The position numbers and the translations under genes are program-made. The notes beneath the pieces are model-generated. The model searched no databases, was not told the DNA's origin, and was given only the letters and a program-made list of their open reading frames with translations. Below are positions 5,302-40,409 of a stretch of 63,711 nt of DNA, one piece after another (the stretch's first letter is position 1; every line of letters starts with the position of its first letter). The DNA comes from Methanococcoides sp. (GTDB lineage: Archaea > Halobacteriota > Methanosarcinia > Methanosarcinales > Methanosarcinaceae). The stretch spans positions 1 through 63,711 of the forward strand of contig JAIORD010000053.1 of NCBI GenBank assembly GCA_021108275.1. The letters are read 5' to 3'.

Positions 5302-6252
5302 TTATTTTGCTACTACGCTAACCATATCAATGAACGCATCTTCATTGTAGCGAGACATCTTTCCTCTGAATTGGATATTGAGTCTGTTTATGTCGGTTAC
5401 TTCAATGCTCTCCTCGTGCCAGGTGTTTTCAGTGTCAACATTTCCTCTTAATATTGCCTTTTCAGTCCAAGTATTTCCTCCATCTGTGGAAACATCAAAT
5501 GCAAGATATTCCCCGTTGTCGAGGCCACTTTCAATATACCAGGAGAAGGTAATTGTTGTGCTTGTTTTGCCACCCAGATCTATATCTTTAGAGGTTAATG
5601 CTGCATCCAAAGCCCTGCCATCGATTTCAGCAGAATAGCTGCCGTCTATTGCCCGCTGAGTTGAATCAAACCAGTCTCTTTGTTTATCTTCGGTCCACAG
5701 CCCGTTCCATTCACCCTGCTCAAAGCTATCATAGAATACCTCTGGTTCACTTGCCACAGGGGCCTCGTTAATGGTCAGAGTCGTATTTTTGATCAAGACA
5801 CTTAGAGGATTTCCTGATGGGTCACTTACGATCACGTTTTTCAGACCAATTGTTGATGTGCTTGTTGCCTGCTCTTTTGCACTCATTGTGATGCTTGCAA
5901 ATGACTCAGGTTCTATGATGCTTGAAGGAGCCAGTATCAAACCGTAAACATTTGAAAGTGTTCCTGCATTGTTGTCTGTGTTTCCATTGCTGAAAAATGT
6001 TGAAGCTCCATTCTGGCTTAAAAGTATGCCTTCAGATACACTGTCTATTTGTAGCTTTGAGCTGTCAAAATCGAGATCGAACTGTAATCCTGCAATTGCA
6101 GCATCCGGTGTTACAAAAACATCGATTGTGAAGTCTTCACCGGTTGTGGCGATTTGAGTTGATGATTCGAGCGTTACGTCTGCTGCAGCTGAATTGAAAC
6201 AACTACAAACAAGCAGAAGTAAAAATATAGTAATTATTGTAATGACTTTAAT
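5302..6252 (-). CDS. Secreted cohesin-domain protein with C-terminal jelly-roll-like domain
   Basis: A frame stays open from 6264 down to the TAA at 5302. It encodes a hydrophobic leader (ITIIFLLLLVC pattern) ending near SAAA-D, then a cohesin-like module of about 130 residues with the hallmark DFTIDVFVTPDAAIAGLQFD and YGLILAP segments. The C-terminal 140 residues contain DSFEQGEWNGLW, SWYIESGLDNGEYLAFDVS and a final IDMVSVVAK, resembling galactose-binding/MAM-type jelly rolls. No ATG, GTG or TTG exists in frame ahead of the leader; a GAGGGTG lies 5 bases before ATT 6252, which is therefore my tentative start. The next usual codon, TTG 5940, would delete the leader and most of the cohesin. 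An unusual start or a base error are both possible. Confidence 0.72.
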   Translation of the reverse strand: MKVITIITIFLLLLVCSCFNSAAADVTLESSTQIATTGEDFTIDVFVTPDAAIAGLQFDLDFDSSKLQIDSVSEGILLSQNGASTFFSNGNTDNNAGTLSNVYGLILAPSSIIEPESFASITMSAKEQATSTSTIGLKNVIVSDPSGNPLSVLIKNTTLTINEAPVASEPEVFYDSFEQGEWNGLWTEDKQRDWFDSTQRAIDGSYSAEIDGRALDAALTSKDIDLGGKTSTTITFSWYIESGLDNGEYLAFDVSTDGGNTWTEKAILRGNVDTENTWHEESIEVTDINRLNIQFRGKMSRYNEDAFIDMVSVVAK

Positions 6253-6482
6253 AGGTACACCCTCTTTATTTTAAAGGCTTGTAGATTTATATGTATATAT
6301 AATTATTCGATGGATTGGATACTAAAAAATATACTATACTATTCTAATAATTATTTTGTAATGTTTCAAATAGGATTCATAAAAAAGTTAATAGAATCTA
6401 TTTTATTTAATTAATTACAGCAGAAACGATTGCTTGAAAATTAACCTGAATACTCCGATTTTCTCCAAACAATAGGATTATT

Positions 6483-7323: not shown

Positions 7324-8070
7324 ATGAAGATAACATTTCTTGGAACAGGTGTGGCGATACCACAGAAAGGCAGGGTACAGTCAGGTGTACTGATCGAGTT
7401 CGGGGAAAAGAAGGTACTTTTTGACTGCGGGGGTGGCATTCTTAATCGGATATTCGAAAGCGGGGCATCACATACTGAGATCGACACAATTGTGCTTTCC
7501 CATCTGCACCTTGATCATGTGGCGGATGTCATGTGTCTGCTCAAGGCTAACTGGCTCTGTGAGAAGCTTGATTCGGTCATTTATGGACCTGTTGGGACAC
7601 AGGAATGGTTAGGACGGCTCATGGACATCTATCCGTACATGAAAGAGAAGGTCAATGTCGAGGTTCGGGAAGTTGCGGCAGGTGATGGATTTGAGCTTGC
7701 AGACGGGTGCAGTGTCCAGTGTGGTAATGGGATACACAGTGTGCCTTCGCTTGGATATAGGGTTGAATACGATGGTAAGGTCGTTGTCTATTCAGGGGAT
7801 ACTGAGCCATGTGATGGCATCATGGAGCTGGCACAAGGTGCCGATATGCTTATTCACGAATGCTCGTTCCCGCTGGATTTTCCGATGACCAATCACGCCA
7901 CACCTGACATGTTGCGACCATATCTCGAAGGGTCTGGTATCTCAAGGGTGTATCTGACACATCTTTATCCTCACATGCAGGGGCACGAAGAGGAAGCTCT
8001 TGAATACATAAAAGAAAAGTTCGAGGGGGAAGTGCATATTGCTTCCGACCTCATGAAAGTTGAGCTCTGA
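7324..8070 (+). CDS. Metallo-beta-lactamase-fold hydrolase, RNase Z-like
   Basis: A 248-residue enzyme with the MBL fold and two-metal site. MKITFLGTG opens the first strand, SHLHLDHVAD (about 59-68) is the HxHxDH motif, GIHSVPSLGYR (about 138) has the His and spacing of RNase Z-type proteins, SGDTEPCD supplies the bridging Asp, and HECSF and the late THLYPHMQGH provide further ligands. RNase Z trims tRNA 3' ends, which fits a genome whose tRNA-Leu lacks encoded CCA, but the protein is shorter than classic RNase Z and could hydrolyse another phosphodiester. It is divergent from the neighbouring tRNA gene. Confidence 0.85.
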   Translation: MKITFLGTGVAIPQKGRVQSGVLIEFGEKKVLFDCGGGILNRIFESGASHTEIDTIVLSHLHLDHVADVMCLLKANWLCEKLDSVIYGPVGTQEWLGRLMDIYPYMKEKVNVEVREVAAGDGFELADGCSVQCGNGIHSVPSLGYRVEYDGKVVVYSGDTEPCDGIMELAQGADMLIHECSFPLDFPMTNHATPDMLRPYLEGSGISRVYLTHLYPHMQGHEEEALEYIKEKFEGEVHIASDLMKVEL

Positions 8071-8120
8071 AAACTAGTCCGGGCATTTTTTCTAGTTCTA
8101 ATTGGATGGGCTGTCCTTGT

Positions 8121-8765
8121 TCAGACCTCAATAAAGGACACGCTCACATTGTCCTGCTCAAGCTCAATAAGGGCCGCATATCCATCTGTTGCCATGCCGG
8201 GATTAACAAGGAATGTATCTCCTGATCTGGCAAATCCCCTTGCTTCGTGAATATGTGCACAGATGACCAGCTTTGAGCGGTCAATGAACTTGGCAACTGC
8301 TGCACTGCCCACATTGTCTCCTGAGATGGAATCCAGAAGTCCTTTTGGGGGTGCATGTGAGACCATTACTATATTGCCCTTACAATCACCCTCACAGGCA
8401 TTGAACATGGGTTCAAGGGCATCCTCGATTTCCTGTTCCTCAAGTTCGAAAGGAGTGTTGAAAGGTGTTGGACTGGAACCTCCTATTCCTACGAAAGCGA
8501 ACTCTCCTATTCTTTCGGTTGCCTTGTGCAAATTCACTATTTCCGAATCATCGAGTACTTCAAGGATATCCTTTTGATCGCAATTTCCGGGAACTGCAAA
8601 GACCGGTACATCAAAAACACCATTTAGTTGTTCAACTTCGCTGGAAGGTCCAAAGTTCGTAATGTCACCACTGATGACCACTACATCGATCTCACCGGCT
8701 TTTTCTTTAATATCTTCCAGATGGGAAAAATCACCATGTATATCAGCAATTGCAAGTATTTTCAT
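8121..8765 (-). CDS. Calcineurin-like metallophosphoesterase
   Basis: A 214-residue phosphoesterase of the YfcE/MJ0936 type. The dimetal motifs are ADIHGDFSHLE (residues 7-17), SGDITNFGP (about 32), VPGNCD (about 58-63, the GN[HC]D block), VSHAPPKG (about 134), and CAHIHEARGF (about 170, GHIHE-like). The small size indicates a minimal catalytic domain with activity on phosphodiesters or phosphoproteins; the true substrate is unknown. It lies 22 bases downstream of the AIM24-family gene on the same strand, so both may be cotranscribed. Confidence 0.9.
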   Translation of the reverse strand: MKILAIADIHGDFSHLEDIKEKAGEIDVVVISGDITNFGPSSEVEQLNGVFDVPVFAVPGNCDQKDILEVLDDSEIVNLHKATERIGEFAFVGIGGSSPTPFNTPFELEEQEIEDALEPMFNACEGDCKGNIVMVSHAPPKGLLDSISGDNVGSAAVAKFIDRSKLVICAHIHEARGFARSGDTFLVNPGMATDGYAALIELEQDNVSVSFIEV

Positions 8766-8787
8766 TTATTTCACCTCATATAGACCG

Positions 8788-9567
8788 TTAGAACTTCCTG
8801 TCGCCACCGAGAATGCCGCCCAGTGCACTTTCACCTATGCCTGCAATACCGCCTTTTTCGCCCCTGTTTGAATCACTAGGGCCAATGGCTGCTGCTATCC
8901 TGTCAGCAAGGCGTGAGAATGGCAGGCTCTGAAGATATACTGTACCTGGTCCTGAGACCGTTGCCAGAACGATACCTTCGCCACCAAAAAGGGCATTCTT
9001 GAAACCGCCTACGAACTGTATGTCGTAGTTAACACTCTCTGAGAATGCCACCAGACAACCTGTATCTACCCTTAGTGTTTCCCCCGGAGCAAGGTCTTTC
9101 TTGATTATCGTGCCGCCTGCATGTACAAATGCAAGGCCGTTGCCTTTGAGCCTCTGGAGAATGAAACCTTCTCCTCCGAAAAGCCCTGCACCTATCTTCT
9201 TCGAGAATGCAATGGAAATATCGACTCCATCTGCAGCGCAGAGGAATGCGTCTTTCTGACAGAGGAAACTGCCACCTTCTGATGCAAGGTCTATGGGTAT
9301 GATCTTACCGGGATATGGTGCTCCAAAGGCCACTGTTCCCTTGCCTTTTCCGTTCTGGGTAAAAGAAGTTATAAAAAAGCTCTCTCCTGAGAATGCACGC
9401 TTCAGACCTTTAAGCAATCCTCCGCCAGTGGACGTTTCCATCTTGATGCCATCTCCCATGAACATCATTGCACCTGCTTCGGCCCTTACGGTCTCACCTT
9501 GATCAAGTTCTATCTCAACAAGCTGCATTTCATTCCCGTGGATCATATAATCAATATCATGTGCCAT
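8788..9567 (-). CDS. AIM24/TIGR00266 family protein
   Basis: A 259-residue protein of the AIM24 (TIGR00266) family, whose trimeric beta-sandwich fold is known but whose cellular role is not. ATG 9567 is chosen over the longer frame from 9642 because GAGGAG lies 7 bases ahead and family members begin near MIHGNEMQLVEIEL. Conserved pieces include VRAEAGAMMFM, the glycine-rich TSTGGGLLKGLKRAFSGES, GGEGFILQRLKG, and GGFKNALFGGEG. The C-terminus is glycine-rich (GILGGDRKF), as in relatives. It is followed by the phosphoesterase gene. Confidence 0.9.
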   Translation of the reverse strand: MAHDIDYMIHGNEMQLVEIELDQGETVRAEAGAMMFMGDGIKMETSTGGGLLKGLKRAFSGESFFITSFTQNGKGKGTVAFGAPYPGKIIPIDLASEGGSFLCQKDAFLCAADGVDISIAFSKKIGAGLFGGEGFILQRLKGNGLAFVHAGGTIIKKDLAPGETLRVDTGCLVAFSESVNYDIQFVGGFKNALFGGEGIVLATVSGPGTVYLQSLPFSRLADRIAAAIGPSDSNRGEKGGIAGIGESALGGILGGDRKF

Positions 9568-37393: not shown

Positions 37394-38035
37394 TCAGACC
37401 AGTCCCAATATTTCACTGATAGTAAGCATTAATTTGCCTACGCCGAACTTAACAGTGTTCCCGAAACCAATAGGTTCGATCTCGATATCACCATTCTGGT
37501 ATGCTGCAAGGAAATCATCTTCAGGAGTCGTTGAAACCATTAATAAGTTTAGGGTTTCTTCATCAGATCTCATCAGTACTGTAGGATCAATTTCAGAGCT
37601 TAGTCCGACCGCAGATTGAAGGATAAGCCTTGAATCAATGGATGTTACTTTTCCATCAGCATCAACATCAAGGCCAAGGTCTTCAGGGATCTTACCAACA
37701 GCCATTTTTACAGCTGAAAGGGAGTCAAGTGCAGTTAGTTTACCATCGGAATTGTAGTCACCTTTTCCGGCTTCAATCTCAATGGAGATCTTACTGAACT
37801 CTACGACCGCACCGTTCAAAGTGACCGCCTTGAGTTCGAGTGTACTATCATCATTCATTTCAATGACGCCGTAGACTTCTTCATTACCAAGCATGTTCTT
37901 TACAAGATCAGGCACAGAATCAAGGTTTGTATTATATGCAGAAACTCTCTGTTCCATATCTTCATATAGATCTGCCTGAGCAGGAGTTGCCAGCAATATC
38001 AAAAAAAGGAATGAAAGAGCTATGATCTTTTTCAT
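37394..38035 (-). CDS. Secreted dockerin-domain protein
   Basis: A 213-residue exported protein. It has a signal peptide (IALSFLFLILLATPAQA), a short domain of about 65 residues, then a type I dockerin at about 91-146: GDYNSDGKLTALDSLSAVK and VDADGKVTSIDSRLILQ are its two calcium-loop/F-helix repeats, each with Asp at positions 1, 5 and 12. The last 65 residues form another region of unknown fold, ending without an anchor. It is the third gene of the cohesin/dockerin cluster and the likely soluble partner of its cohesins. Confidence 0.88.
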   Translation of the reverse strand: MKKIIALSFLFLILLATPAQADLYEDMEQRVSAYNTNLDSVPDLVKNMLGNEEVYGVIEMNDDSTLELKAVTLNGAVVEFSKISIEIEAGKGDYNSDGKLTALDSLSAVKMAVGKIPEDLGLDVDADGKVTSIDSRLILQSAVGLSSEIDPTVLMRSDEETLNLLMVSTTPEDDFLAAYQNGDIEIEPIGFGNTVKFGVGKLMLTISEILGLV

Positions 38036-38053
38036 TCTATCCCCTTCCTATGC

Positions 38054-38605
38054 TTAGTCCCTTCTTCTCATGAAAAGTGCACAAATGCAGAGTATGCCAA
38101 CTGATGCAAGCATCATGCTACCATATCCTACACTCTCGGAACCGGCATCTGTTACAGTTACAACACCATCTGCAGTTTCAGCTACAATTTCCACAAGTCC
38201 TACATTATGGAGGACAACTTCTTCAACACTAACAGTGCTTGAGGTGCCTATGTCTCCTAGAACAATAAAAGATACTGCTATAACTGCGCCGTCACCGGTA
38301 ATACCAGAAGAATCTGCAAGAGCAACAGTCACTTCGCCTGGAATTGCAACGTTTGATTCCATAAATGAATTACTACCAAGATCTGAACCTGATATACCTG
38401 CAGCCTGCAGTACATCACTATCATATTTTAGCACAAGGTCCATGCTGCCTATTTCTGATGCTCCTGTAAAGTAGACAGGAACTTCCACTGAACTACCGCT
38501 TGATGCTTCTACATCATCTGTATAAACTGTCACCGGGACTGCACCTGCAGATGCACATGTAAACAGACATACCATTGCTACCACGAACATACATACTTTC
38601 TTCAT
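38054..38605 (-). CDS. Membrane-anchored cohesin-domain protein
   Basis: A 183-residue surface protein consisting of a signal peptide (VCMFVVAMVCLFTCASAGA), one cohesin domain (about 24-150), and a C-terminal helix (MMLASVGILCICALF) ending RRRD. Cohesin hallmarks are VPVYFTGASEIGSMDLVLKYD, a following VTVALADSSGITGDGAVIAVSF and a final beta strand. The helix and basic tail anchor it in the cytoplasmic membrane with the cohesin outside. It sits between the propeller-cohesin-dockerin gene (13 bases upstream) and the dockerin gene (18 bases downstream), so it could be the attachment point of the complex. Confidence 0.88.
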   Translation of the reverse strand: MKKVCMFVVAMVCLFTCASAGAVPVTVYTDDVEASSGSSVEVPVYFTGASEIGSMDLVLKYDSDVLQAAGISGSDLGSNSFMESNVAIPGEVTVALADSSGITGDGAVIAVSFIVLGDIGTSSTVSVEEVVLHNVGLVEIVAETADGVVTVTDAGSESVGYGSMMLASVGILCICALFMRRRD

Positions 38606-38618
38606 TTTATTACCTCGA

Positions 38619-40409
38619 TTAATTGATAGGCTTCTTTTCAGAAGCCATCTTCAGTATAAGTCTTGCATCAATGGAAGATACACTTCCATCATCATTTACA
38701 TCCATCGATTCATGCATTTCGATCTTATCTACGGACATAAGTAGTGCATACAATGCATCGTATGCAGAAAATTCACCGCCATCACCGGCAGCATCTCCTT
38801 TTCCTTCATCTTTTCCAAGAACCGTGAAAACACCATCTGTTGATTCAATCTCGATCATTGAAAGGTCGGATGCACTATTAGATACGAGCTTATCTATTCT
38901 AAGTGGAGATGTTTCGTCTTCGGAACCGATAACATTGAACTTAACATAACAAATCGAACCATCCCCACTAAAACCTTTCATGTCCACAAGGCTTATCTTG
39001 ACAGTTTCTGTCATAATATTGTACTCAAAGAGTGAGTTTTCCGTTAATCCTCCTTTTACAAGTTCCACACACTCAAGCACATTAGGGTCATAACTTAGTG
39101 TAAGATCCATGTTGCCAATAGCCTCATCTGTACCGGACATAGTAAGTGGGATTTGCACACTTGTTCCAGTTGTTTTGCTACGTGATTCGAAAACAAGTGT
39201 ATTCTTCTCTTCAGAAATAAGAATCGGTTCTACTACATTTTCAGGTACATGGACTTCAGGAAGCTCCCCAGAATATACTACCTTCGCAGAGTAAAGGGCA
39301 TTTGGAGATGTTGCCGGAACTTGTTCAGTATTGCTATAGAAATGACCTACATACAATGATGTAGATGAATAATCATCTGTTGTGACAAGGAACGAAACAG
39401 TGTCAGCATCGTTGTTAATGTAAGTTCCATCAATACTTCCCACAGCATCTTTAAGATTTTCATTTAGTGAAAGTTCAAAGACCTGTTTGTCATTTGTACT
39501 CACAAATACAGTATCTTCCTCATTTGAAGTAAACATGATGGAACCATCATAGTTCAAGTGCCCCCAACCTGTAAATGAACCCAGTTTTGTTAAATATTTG
39601 TTTCCAGGTCTGAAAAGATAAGTATCTTCTTCAACTCCATAGATAATGTAAGCACCATCACCACTCATATCAAATAGGAATTTAGTTATGCCATTGTCTT
39701 CTTCATCATCAAATGTCATTTGATTAGAATTGCCATATTTAGAAAAGAACAATTCAGTCAATTCATGTGAAGTTCCATTTTCCACATAGCCCGGTGGTAT
39801 GAATGCAACATTAATTCCATCATCAGAAATGCGGAAATCAAGTATTTTAGAGATTTCTTTATCATCCACATCTACATCCTCTCGATCGACAACAACAGCA
39901 TCATGGGTTGCATCGGAATTAATTTTCCACACATTCCCAATACTCTCGACAGTCATGTAAACATAATCACCTTTATCGGTGGTTTGAAGCATCCAAATAT
40001 AGTATTCATCATCAAATGCTACAACTTCATCAATACTTCCGTCTTCGATTATATAAACAGCATTGAGACCGTTGAAATAAGCGATTGAACCATCTTGATT
40101 AGTTACAATGTTCATGGCCGAACCATCGGGAGTAGGATATGTTTTCAATCCAGAACCATCTGAATTAATGTGACCTACAATCATTTCATCGGTTTTTACA
40201 TCAATTCCGTTGAAATATATCACATTCTCATTATTGCTCATAGCAGTGTGGAATATTTCAATACCAGAAACGTCACTGTCAATTATCTTTTCATAAACTG
40301 CAACAGCATAAGCATCAAAAGTAGTTGATTTTGCTGAAGCAATAAAAGGACAAAAAGCTAAGATAAAGATCATAATAAATATTTGTTTAGAAATAACATT
40401 ATAACTCAT
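38619..40409 (-). CDS. Secreted beta-propeller protein with cohesin and dockerin domains
   Basis: A 596-residue exported protein with three parts. After a signal peptide (IFIMIFILAFCPFIASA), residues about 30-375 are repeated beta blades of the TolB/WD type (GSIAYFNGLNAVYI, GAYIIYGVEEDTYLF, GSIMFTSNEEDTVFV). Residues about 395-530 are a cohesin (QIPLTMSGTDEAIGNMDLTL, ISLVDMKGFSGDGSICYVKF). Residues about 537-593 are a dockerin (GDAAGDGGEFSAYDALYALL, VNDDGSVSSIDARLILKMA). Carrying both modules, it could link a dockerin protein to another cohesin. It heads the three-gene cluster. Confidence 0.86.
   Translation of the reverse strand: MSYNVISKQIFIMIFILAFCPFIASAKSTTFDAYAVAVYEKIIDSDVSGIEIFHTAMSNNENVIYFNGIDVKTDEMIVGHINSDGSGLKTYPTPDGSAMNIVTNQDGSIAYFNGLNAVYIIEDGSIDEVVAFDDEYYIWMLQTTDKGDYVYMTVESIGNVWKINSDATHDAVVVDREDVDVDDKEISKILDFRISDDGINVAFIPPGYVENGTSHELTELFFSKYGNSNQMTFDDEEDNGITKFLFDMSGDGAYIIYGVEEDTYLFRPGNKYLTKLGSFTGWGHLNYDGSIMFTSNEEDTVFVSTNDKQVFELSLNENLKDAVGSIDGTYINNDADTVSFLVTTDDYSSTSLYVGHFYSNTEQVPATSPNALYSAKVVYSGELPEVHVPENVVEPILISEEKNTLVFESRSKTTGTSVQIPLTMSGTDEAIGNMDLTLSYDPNVLECVELVKGGLTENSLFEYNIMTETVKISLVDMKGFSGDGSICYVKFNVIGSEDETSPLRIDKLVSNSASDLSMIEIESTDGVFTVLGKDEGKGDAAGDGGEFSAYDALYALLMSVDKIEMHESMDVNDDGSVSSIDARLILKMASEKKPIN

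Follow-up and report, generated by a model that had tools for sequence, protein, structure and literature searches.

A conserved archaeal operon encoding an anchored cohesin, a putative cohesin-dockerin adaptor and a dockerin protein of predicted SCP2 fold

Three consecutive genes of a Methanococcoides genome encode a secreted protein that carries a propeller, a cohesin and a dockerin (P), a membrane-anchored cohesin (CohA), and a small secreted protein in which a dockerin interrupts a predicted sterol carrier (SCP2) fold (DocP). This P-CohA-DocP operon belongs with the archaeal non-cellulosomal cohesin-dockerin systems of the AF2375/2376 kind. The reading that we modestly favor is a calcium-dependent surface complex in which CohA would be the anchor, P the adaptor and DocP the carrier, such that an SCP2-fold protein is presented for a lipid-like molecule. 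Since 1999, the cohesins and dockerins of archaea have been described as enigmatic, because outside cellulose breakdown both their partners and their purpose were unclear.

The locus and its three genes

The window, which is the whole stretch of 63,711 nucleotides analyzed here, corresponds to contig 17 in a genome of 2.67 Mb (G000) in which 12 dockerin matches and 11 cohesin matches were detected. The genes of the trio are as follows.

37394..38035, minus strand: DocP, secreted protein of predicted SCP2 fold with an inserted dockerin (213-aa open reading frame, Pfam, structure model)
38054..38605, minus strand: CohA, cohesin with a C-terminal membrane tail (183-aa open reading frame, Pfam)
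38619..40409, minus strand: P, putative secreted adaptor with signal peptide, propeller, cohesin and dockerin (596-aa open reading frame, Pfam, profile)

The initial annotation had described three minus-strand open reading frames separated by 18 bp (DocP-CohA) and 13 bp (CohA-P), which is exactly what a check of the open reading frames returned. The signal peptides that it had assigned to all three proteins are plain, with N-terminal 19-residue hydropathies of 1.85-2.25, and the cohesins of P and CohA as well as the dockerin of DocP score over the Pfam cut-offs. As the trio recurs elsewhere in the same genome, in other genera and in one other phylum, its association is beyond chance. Elsewhere in the window, a 322-aa open frame (5302-6270, minus strand) contains a cohesin match at 5809-6171 (E 1.2e-12); as the first usual start codon falls within the cohesin domain, this is probably a broken or truncated gene.

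Conservation and distribution of the operon

Conserved synteny of the trio was looked for in relatives, the genomes searched being species representatives, and it was found at 20 triads. At 20 of the 20 intact DocP loci, i.e., those with both dockerin and backbone, P, CohA and DocP follow one another on one strand, with DocP directly downstream of CohA and P upstream, and most triads show short gaps or overlaps between genes. Broken matches in two genomes (G249 and G344) are left out of this count, as is a DocP-like open reading frame (G013:C78) whose insert is something other than a dockerin and which lacks an upstream CohA. The hosts are Methanosarcinales, the family f21, seven Archaeoglobaceae and one Thermoplasmatota metagenome-assembled genome (MAG). 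Each operon comprises one to three P genes, while CohA and DocP are usually single; one genome (G173) has two CohA genes, and the distance of 573 bp found there spans the first of them.

DocP is not essential, since P-CohA pairs are kept without it in Archaeoglobus fulgidus (G336), in contrast with the seven other Archaeoglobaceae that have DocP, as well as in an ANME-1 MAG (L080) and in Methanomethylovorans. Within the genus, only the genome under study and a Methanococcoides MAG (G064) have DocP among 11 genomes. In three congeners, both flanks of the locus are present at 76-93% DNA identity and the trio is cleanly absent, the empty site of one of them (G068) measuring about 94 bp where the trio occupies about 3.2 kb. 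Because these congeners keep the flanks and miss exactly the trio, it appears to come and go as one accessory unit. In a different genus of the same family (G049), the trio is 72% identical at the DNA level, encodes a P ortholog of 596 aa and, like the trio of the window, has aconitase nearby. P and CohA genes very like the archaeal ones were also observed in a MAG labeled Chloroflexi (L084), which reflects either mis-binning or transfer.

Such patchy presence could be taken to mean that the modules are vestigial, do not bind and have been kept by chance, and the weak Pfam score of the P dockerin (see below) would agree with this. Nevertheless, gene order and modules are conserved over two phyla and so are the calcium-loop and helix positions of the dockerins, which makes this explanation very improbable.

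The putative adaptor protein P

The following modules were delineated in P.

39225..40334, minus strand: TolB/PD40-like beta-propeller, residues about 26-395 (profile matches; the propellers of Archaeoglobi P proteins are homologous via intermediates)
38820..39206, minus strand: cohesin, residues about 402-530 (Pfam E 4.1e-13; 2xdh E 2.7e-19)
38640..38798, minus strand: dockerin, residues about 538-590 (Pfam 19.5 bits, below the cut-off; aligned with 45 dockerins)

The initial annotation had recognized a beta-propeller in P. No Pfam match over threshold was obtained for this region, but a profile of six sequences matches the designed propellers Scone (E 1.5e-10) and Cake, as well as TolB (E about 1e-4), which bears the assignment out. 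An oligogalacturonate lyase was considered (3pe7, E 3.8e-4) and rejected, as it is outscored by the designed propellers and TolB, and the summary alignment A4 shows no invariant histidine. The claimed dockerin of P scores below the Pfam Dockerin_1 cut-off (E 0.0011, 19.5 bits), yet both of its repeats align with those of 45 other dockerins, and its first loop is one residue longer than that of DocP. Thus, the two calcium-loop repeats and helices of a type I dockerin are recognized in P by alignment and in DocP over the cut-off.

A sister operon on contig 3 of the same genome (L024:3412-9096) comprises one gene each for CohA and DocP and two for P proteins of 812 and 660 aa. Its P proteins carry a LamG-like (E 3.7e-32) and a FecR-like module, neither of which is a propeller, and across operons propeller, LamG, FecR and FG-GAP modules were seen. 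The cohesin-dockerin end is 52-76% identical to that of the window P in 19 of 21 relatives. As the modules of the sister operon differ from the propeller, the N-terminus of P appears exchangeable and the cohesin-dockerin end kept. The earlier description of the propeller protein as a link therefore stands insofar as P would be an adaptor; it is amended in that the displayed part is exchangeable and that P, with its own cohesin and a dockerin like that of DocP, might also form P-P chains. The A. fulgidus P gene is split between two frames, one encoding the signal peptide and the first part of the propeller, and the other the remainder (L121:7281-7754 and 7720-9240).

The anchored cohesin CohA

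Two features were delineated in CohA.

38153..38533, minus strand: type I cohesin, residues about 25-151 (Pfam E 2.6e-14; model against 2xdh)
38057..38128, minus strand: C-terminal tail, GY followed by a transmembrane stretch and RRRD (hydropathy; model helix 161-181; tails of 12 orthologs)

The claim that CohA is membrane-anchored agrees with its C-terminus, where hydropathy reaches 2.0 at residue 161 ahead of RRRD; it is the only one of the three proteins with such a hydrophobic end, typical of an anchor. The CohA model superimposes on the A. fulgidus cohesin structure 2xdh with a Z of 20.0 (134 aligned residues, rmsd 3.1), tied with bacterial type I cohesins. By sequence, 2xdh is matched by both cohesins of the trio, with E values of 9.1e-12 for CohA and 2.7e-19 for P, and it is the best structural and sequence match.

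The tails of Methanosarcinaceae CohA proteins (window 38057-38128; L024, L062-L069) have GY, often AGY, followed by a hydrophobic stretch and basic residues, whereas those of Archaeoglobi are PGF-CTERM-like. Two exosortase-family genes are present in the Methanococcoides genome, and the GY/AGY-type tail is possibly an unnamed archaeosortase signal.

DocP, a dockerin within a predicted SCP2 fold

DocP is composed of three segments.

37784..37972, minus strand: N-terminal half of the predicted SCP2 fold, residues 22-84, helix-helix-three strands (model, structure search; dockerin-free relatives)
37598..37768, minus strand: dockerin, residues 90-146, two calcium-loop repeats (Pfam; model match to 4uyp_B)
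37397..37588, minus strand: C-terminal half of the predicted SCP2 fold, residues 150-213, strand-helix-helix-strand-helix (model; structure and profile-profile searches)

The dockerin is detected by Pfam Dockerin_1 (E 2.1e-5, 25.0 bits for a cut-off of 22.9). Many dockerin-free secreted proteins of 150-165 aa match DocP over residues 1-83 and 146-212 within a single frame, indicating that the dockerin interrupts a widespread, functionally uncharacterized protein. An SCP2-like fold was proposed for DocP from its sequence ahead of the structure search. In a model built from seven sequences (mean pLDDT 63.6), the best non-dockerin structure matches are SCP2-fold proteins, including 3bdq (Z 9.0, 104 aligned residues, rmsd 4.0), 3cnu, which is AF1534 of A. 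fulgidus (Z 8.8, 101 aligned, rmsd 3.2), and UbiJ-SCP2 (Z 8.5), a Z of about 9 being barely above the level reached by unrelated models. The model also matches the SCP2-like C-terminal domain of alkylsulfatases. These alignments comprise 93-117 residues and span about 20-198 across the dockerin insert, and residues 88-146 match the dockerin 4uyp_B separately (Z 8.2). Foldseek returned 3bn8 (probability 1.00, E 2e-3). The isolated DocP model is weaker than the DocP region within a CohA-DocP fusion model.

When 26 dockerin-free or trimmed backbones were compared with archaeal SCP2 profile to profile, a score of 29.2 was obtained and 60 of 60 column shuffles scored lower (maximum 19.5), with a probability of 37%, so that at the sequence level homology between DocP and SCP2 is only suggested. 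Neither DocP nor its relatives have a Pfam match to PF02036 (SCP2). Relationships with PepSY (Pfam E 0.12) and LiaX (17.9 bits for a cut-off of 350) were considered; both matches are insignificant, and SCP2 fits better. According to its model, then, DocP has an SCP2 fold with the topology preserved across the whole domain, an assignment that is new here. It shares the predicted fold and the order of elements outside the dockerin with AF1534, UbiJ-SCP2 and the alkylsulfatase domain, and differs from SCP2 proteins in being secreted, in the dockerin inserted in its fold and in lacking a PF02036 match; a literature search for sterol carrier proteins with a dockerin found none among the papers covered. 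A dockerin-free SCP2-like protein (L130:15149-15805) is encoded at a distance of about 6.5 kb from an operon with the order P-P-CohA-DocP.

The position of the dockerin depends on the lineage. It lies between beta3 and beta4 in the DocP proteins of Methanosarcinales and family f21, and N-terminal to the SCP2 part in those of Archaeoglobi and of the Thermoplasmatota MAG. In a tree of backbones from which the dockerin was removed, the two placements form two clades (82% and 98% of bootstraps), each adjoined by SCP2 relatives that lack a dockerin. The dockerin was either added to an SCP2-fold protein twice or moved, with losses; both histories point to selection for a dockable SCP2-fold protein beside the same anchored cohesin. 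This joining in two separate clades, at the same operon position, is left unexplained if the system serves adhesion, with the exchangeable propeller or LamG modules of P binding neighboring cells or matrix sugars and the SCP2-fold part acting as a passive spacer. That explanation can draw on the LamG-like N-terminus of the sister operon and on the cell contact that ANME papers propose for cohesin/dockerin proteins, and we consider it unlikely.

Cohesin clades and binding specificity

In a tree of 56 cohesin domains, those of CohA are separated from those of P by a single branch (support 86/75, 84% of bootstrap trees), and each side holds Methanosarcinales, ANME-1, Archaeoglobi and Thermoplasmatota. 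Since the two clades have the same spread, two distinct cohesin roles appear to have been kept together. By position and sequence (L121), A. fulgidus ORF2376 is a CohA and ORF2375 a P, the 2xdh sequence being the cohesin of this P-type gene. The ORF2376 cohesin and the ORF2375 dockerin form a strong and specific pair (PMC9705933). The statement in the initial annotation that partners of archaeal modules are mostly unidentified therefore holds except for A. fulgidus, the closest relative, which has an identified pair.

At 16 helix positions, the dockerins of P and DocP are 62% identical, as opposed to 49% elsewhere. Because the two share a recognition-helix pattern, DocP might just as well bind CohA, and P-P binding is conceivable. 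A CohA-DocP complex was folded as an in-frame read-through with stop codons replaced by Gly, purely as a modeling device; the domains of the resulting model are good and their mutual placement is of low confidence (pTM 0.40).

Two other arrangements follow from this likeness. In the first, the P cohesin would recognize the P dockerin, giving a head-to-tail fiber of P that starts from CohA, displays many P modules and is capped by DocP, whose only binding module is a dockerin. The shared helix pattern argues for it, as does the presence of several P genes in some operons beside what is usually one CohA and one DocP, apart from the two CohA genes of G173. Moreover, both A. fulgidus cohesins reportedly bind its single dockerin, which lies on P itself. 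The two ancient cohesin clades may signify different specificities, and we regard such chains as possible but not probable. In the second, the dockerins of P and DocP would compete for CohA only, and the P cohesin would recruit other dockerin proteins. The similar recognition positions, the location of the CohA gene between the other two and the existence of further dockerin proteins on other contigs are compatible with this. It would leave the conserved P cohesin devoid of an operon partner, and the helices of the other dockerins are clearly different, which renders it rather unlikely.

A model for the surface complex

In the anchor-adaptor-carrier complex that we favor, the C-terminal tail of CohA would anchor it in the membrane and leave its type I cohesin on the outside, and secreted P would dock onto CohA via the C-terminal dockerin of P. 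P would then present its propeller, or LamG, FecR or other modules in other operons, and offer its own cohesin, to which we infer that DocP binds through the dockerin in its beta3-beta4 loop. The SCP2 domain of DocP would accommodate a lipophilic ligand, and at the outer cell face it might take up a lipid-like molecule or pass it on, with a putative role in uptake or transfer. The earlier scheme of an anchored base, a link and a soluble cargo is thus retained as a syntenic three-part system whose CohA-P step has been published for the A. fulgidus orthologs (PMC9705933), while its cargo is redefined as a protein of predicted SCP2 fold with a dockerin inserted midway. A bolder version, to which we give little credence, is an extracellular lipid shuttle, in which an SCP2-fold carrier that gained its dockerin twice independently plugs into an anchored chain of cohesins and ferries a membrane-soluble compound between the membrane and either the cell exterior or an adjacent cell; one might guess at an isoprenoid lipid or an electron carrier such as methanophenazine or menaquinone.

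Relation to known cohesin-dockerin systems

The system of A. fulgidus resembles that of the window most, with P, a TolB-like propeller with cohesin and dockerin, encoded directly before CohA, which has a C-terminal sorting and transmembrane tail. It differs in the absence of DocP beside CohA and in that tail, PGF-CTERM-like as opposed to GY, transmembrane stretch and RRRD. The cohesin/dockerin proteins described in ANME archaea are likewise extracellular and non-cellulosomal (PMC9012536), and the ANME-1 MAG has a P-CohA pair as in the window. That account, in the parts consulted here, emphasizes scaffoldins with multiple cohesins and ABC-transporter binding proteins that bear dockerins, and these parts describe neither an SCP2-fold dockerin protein nor a three-gene operon (Chadwick et al., 2022; PMC9012536).

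With bacterial cellulosomes, the trio shares the type I cohesin fold and the two-repeat calcium-loop dockerin. It differs from them in having one cohesin per protein, an archaeal tail anchor instead of SLH, and neither scaffoldin nor glycoside hydrolase in the operon. A cellulosome-like degradation complex, with a multi-cohesin scaffoldin and dockerin-borne glycoside hydrolases, was accordingly rejected, as neither the trio nor the sister operon encodes a glycoside hydrolase domain. The earlier remark that polymer-degrading enzymes are absent is valid for the window and the operon; on other contigs of the same genome, a disaggregatase-related protein with dockerin and cohesin (L026:3035-7216) and a beta-helix/CBM9 protein with dockerin (L025:6351-9356) are encoded, their dockerin helices differing from those of the trio. 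Another contig of 10 kb (contig 33, L027), which encodes several dissimilar dockerin proteins together with a REP-transposase-like gene, seems not to belong to the genome and to be a contamination.

Significance

The operon provides a closed set of probable partners for archaeal cohesins and dockerins, and the trio would represent an orthogonal cohesin-dockerin set for engineering. DocP is a conserved third component that A. fulgidus, the model studied best, does not have, and the predicted lipid-carrier fold of this docked protein may be a clue to function. Together, the probable partners, the third component and the predicted fold make the purpose of archaeal dockerins directly testable with three small proteins.
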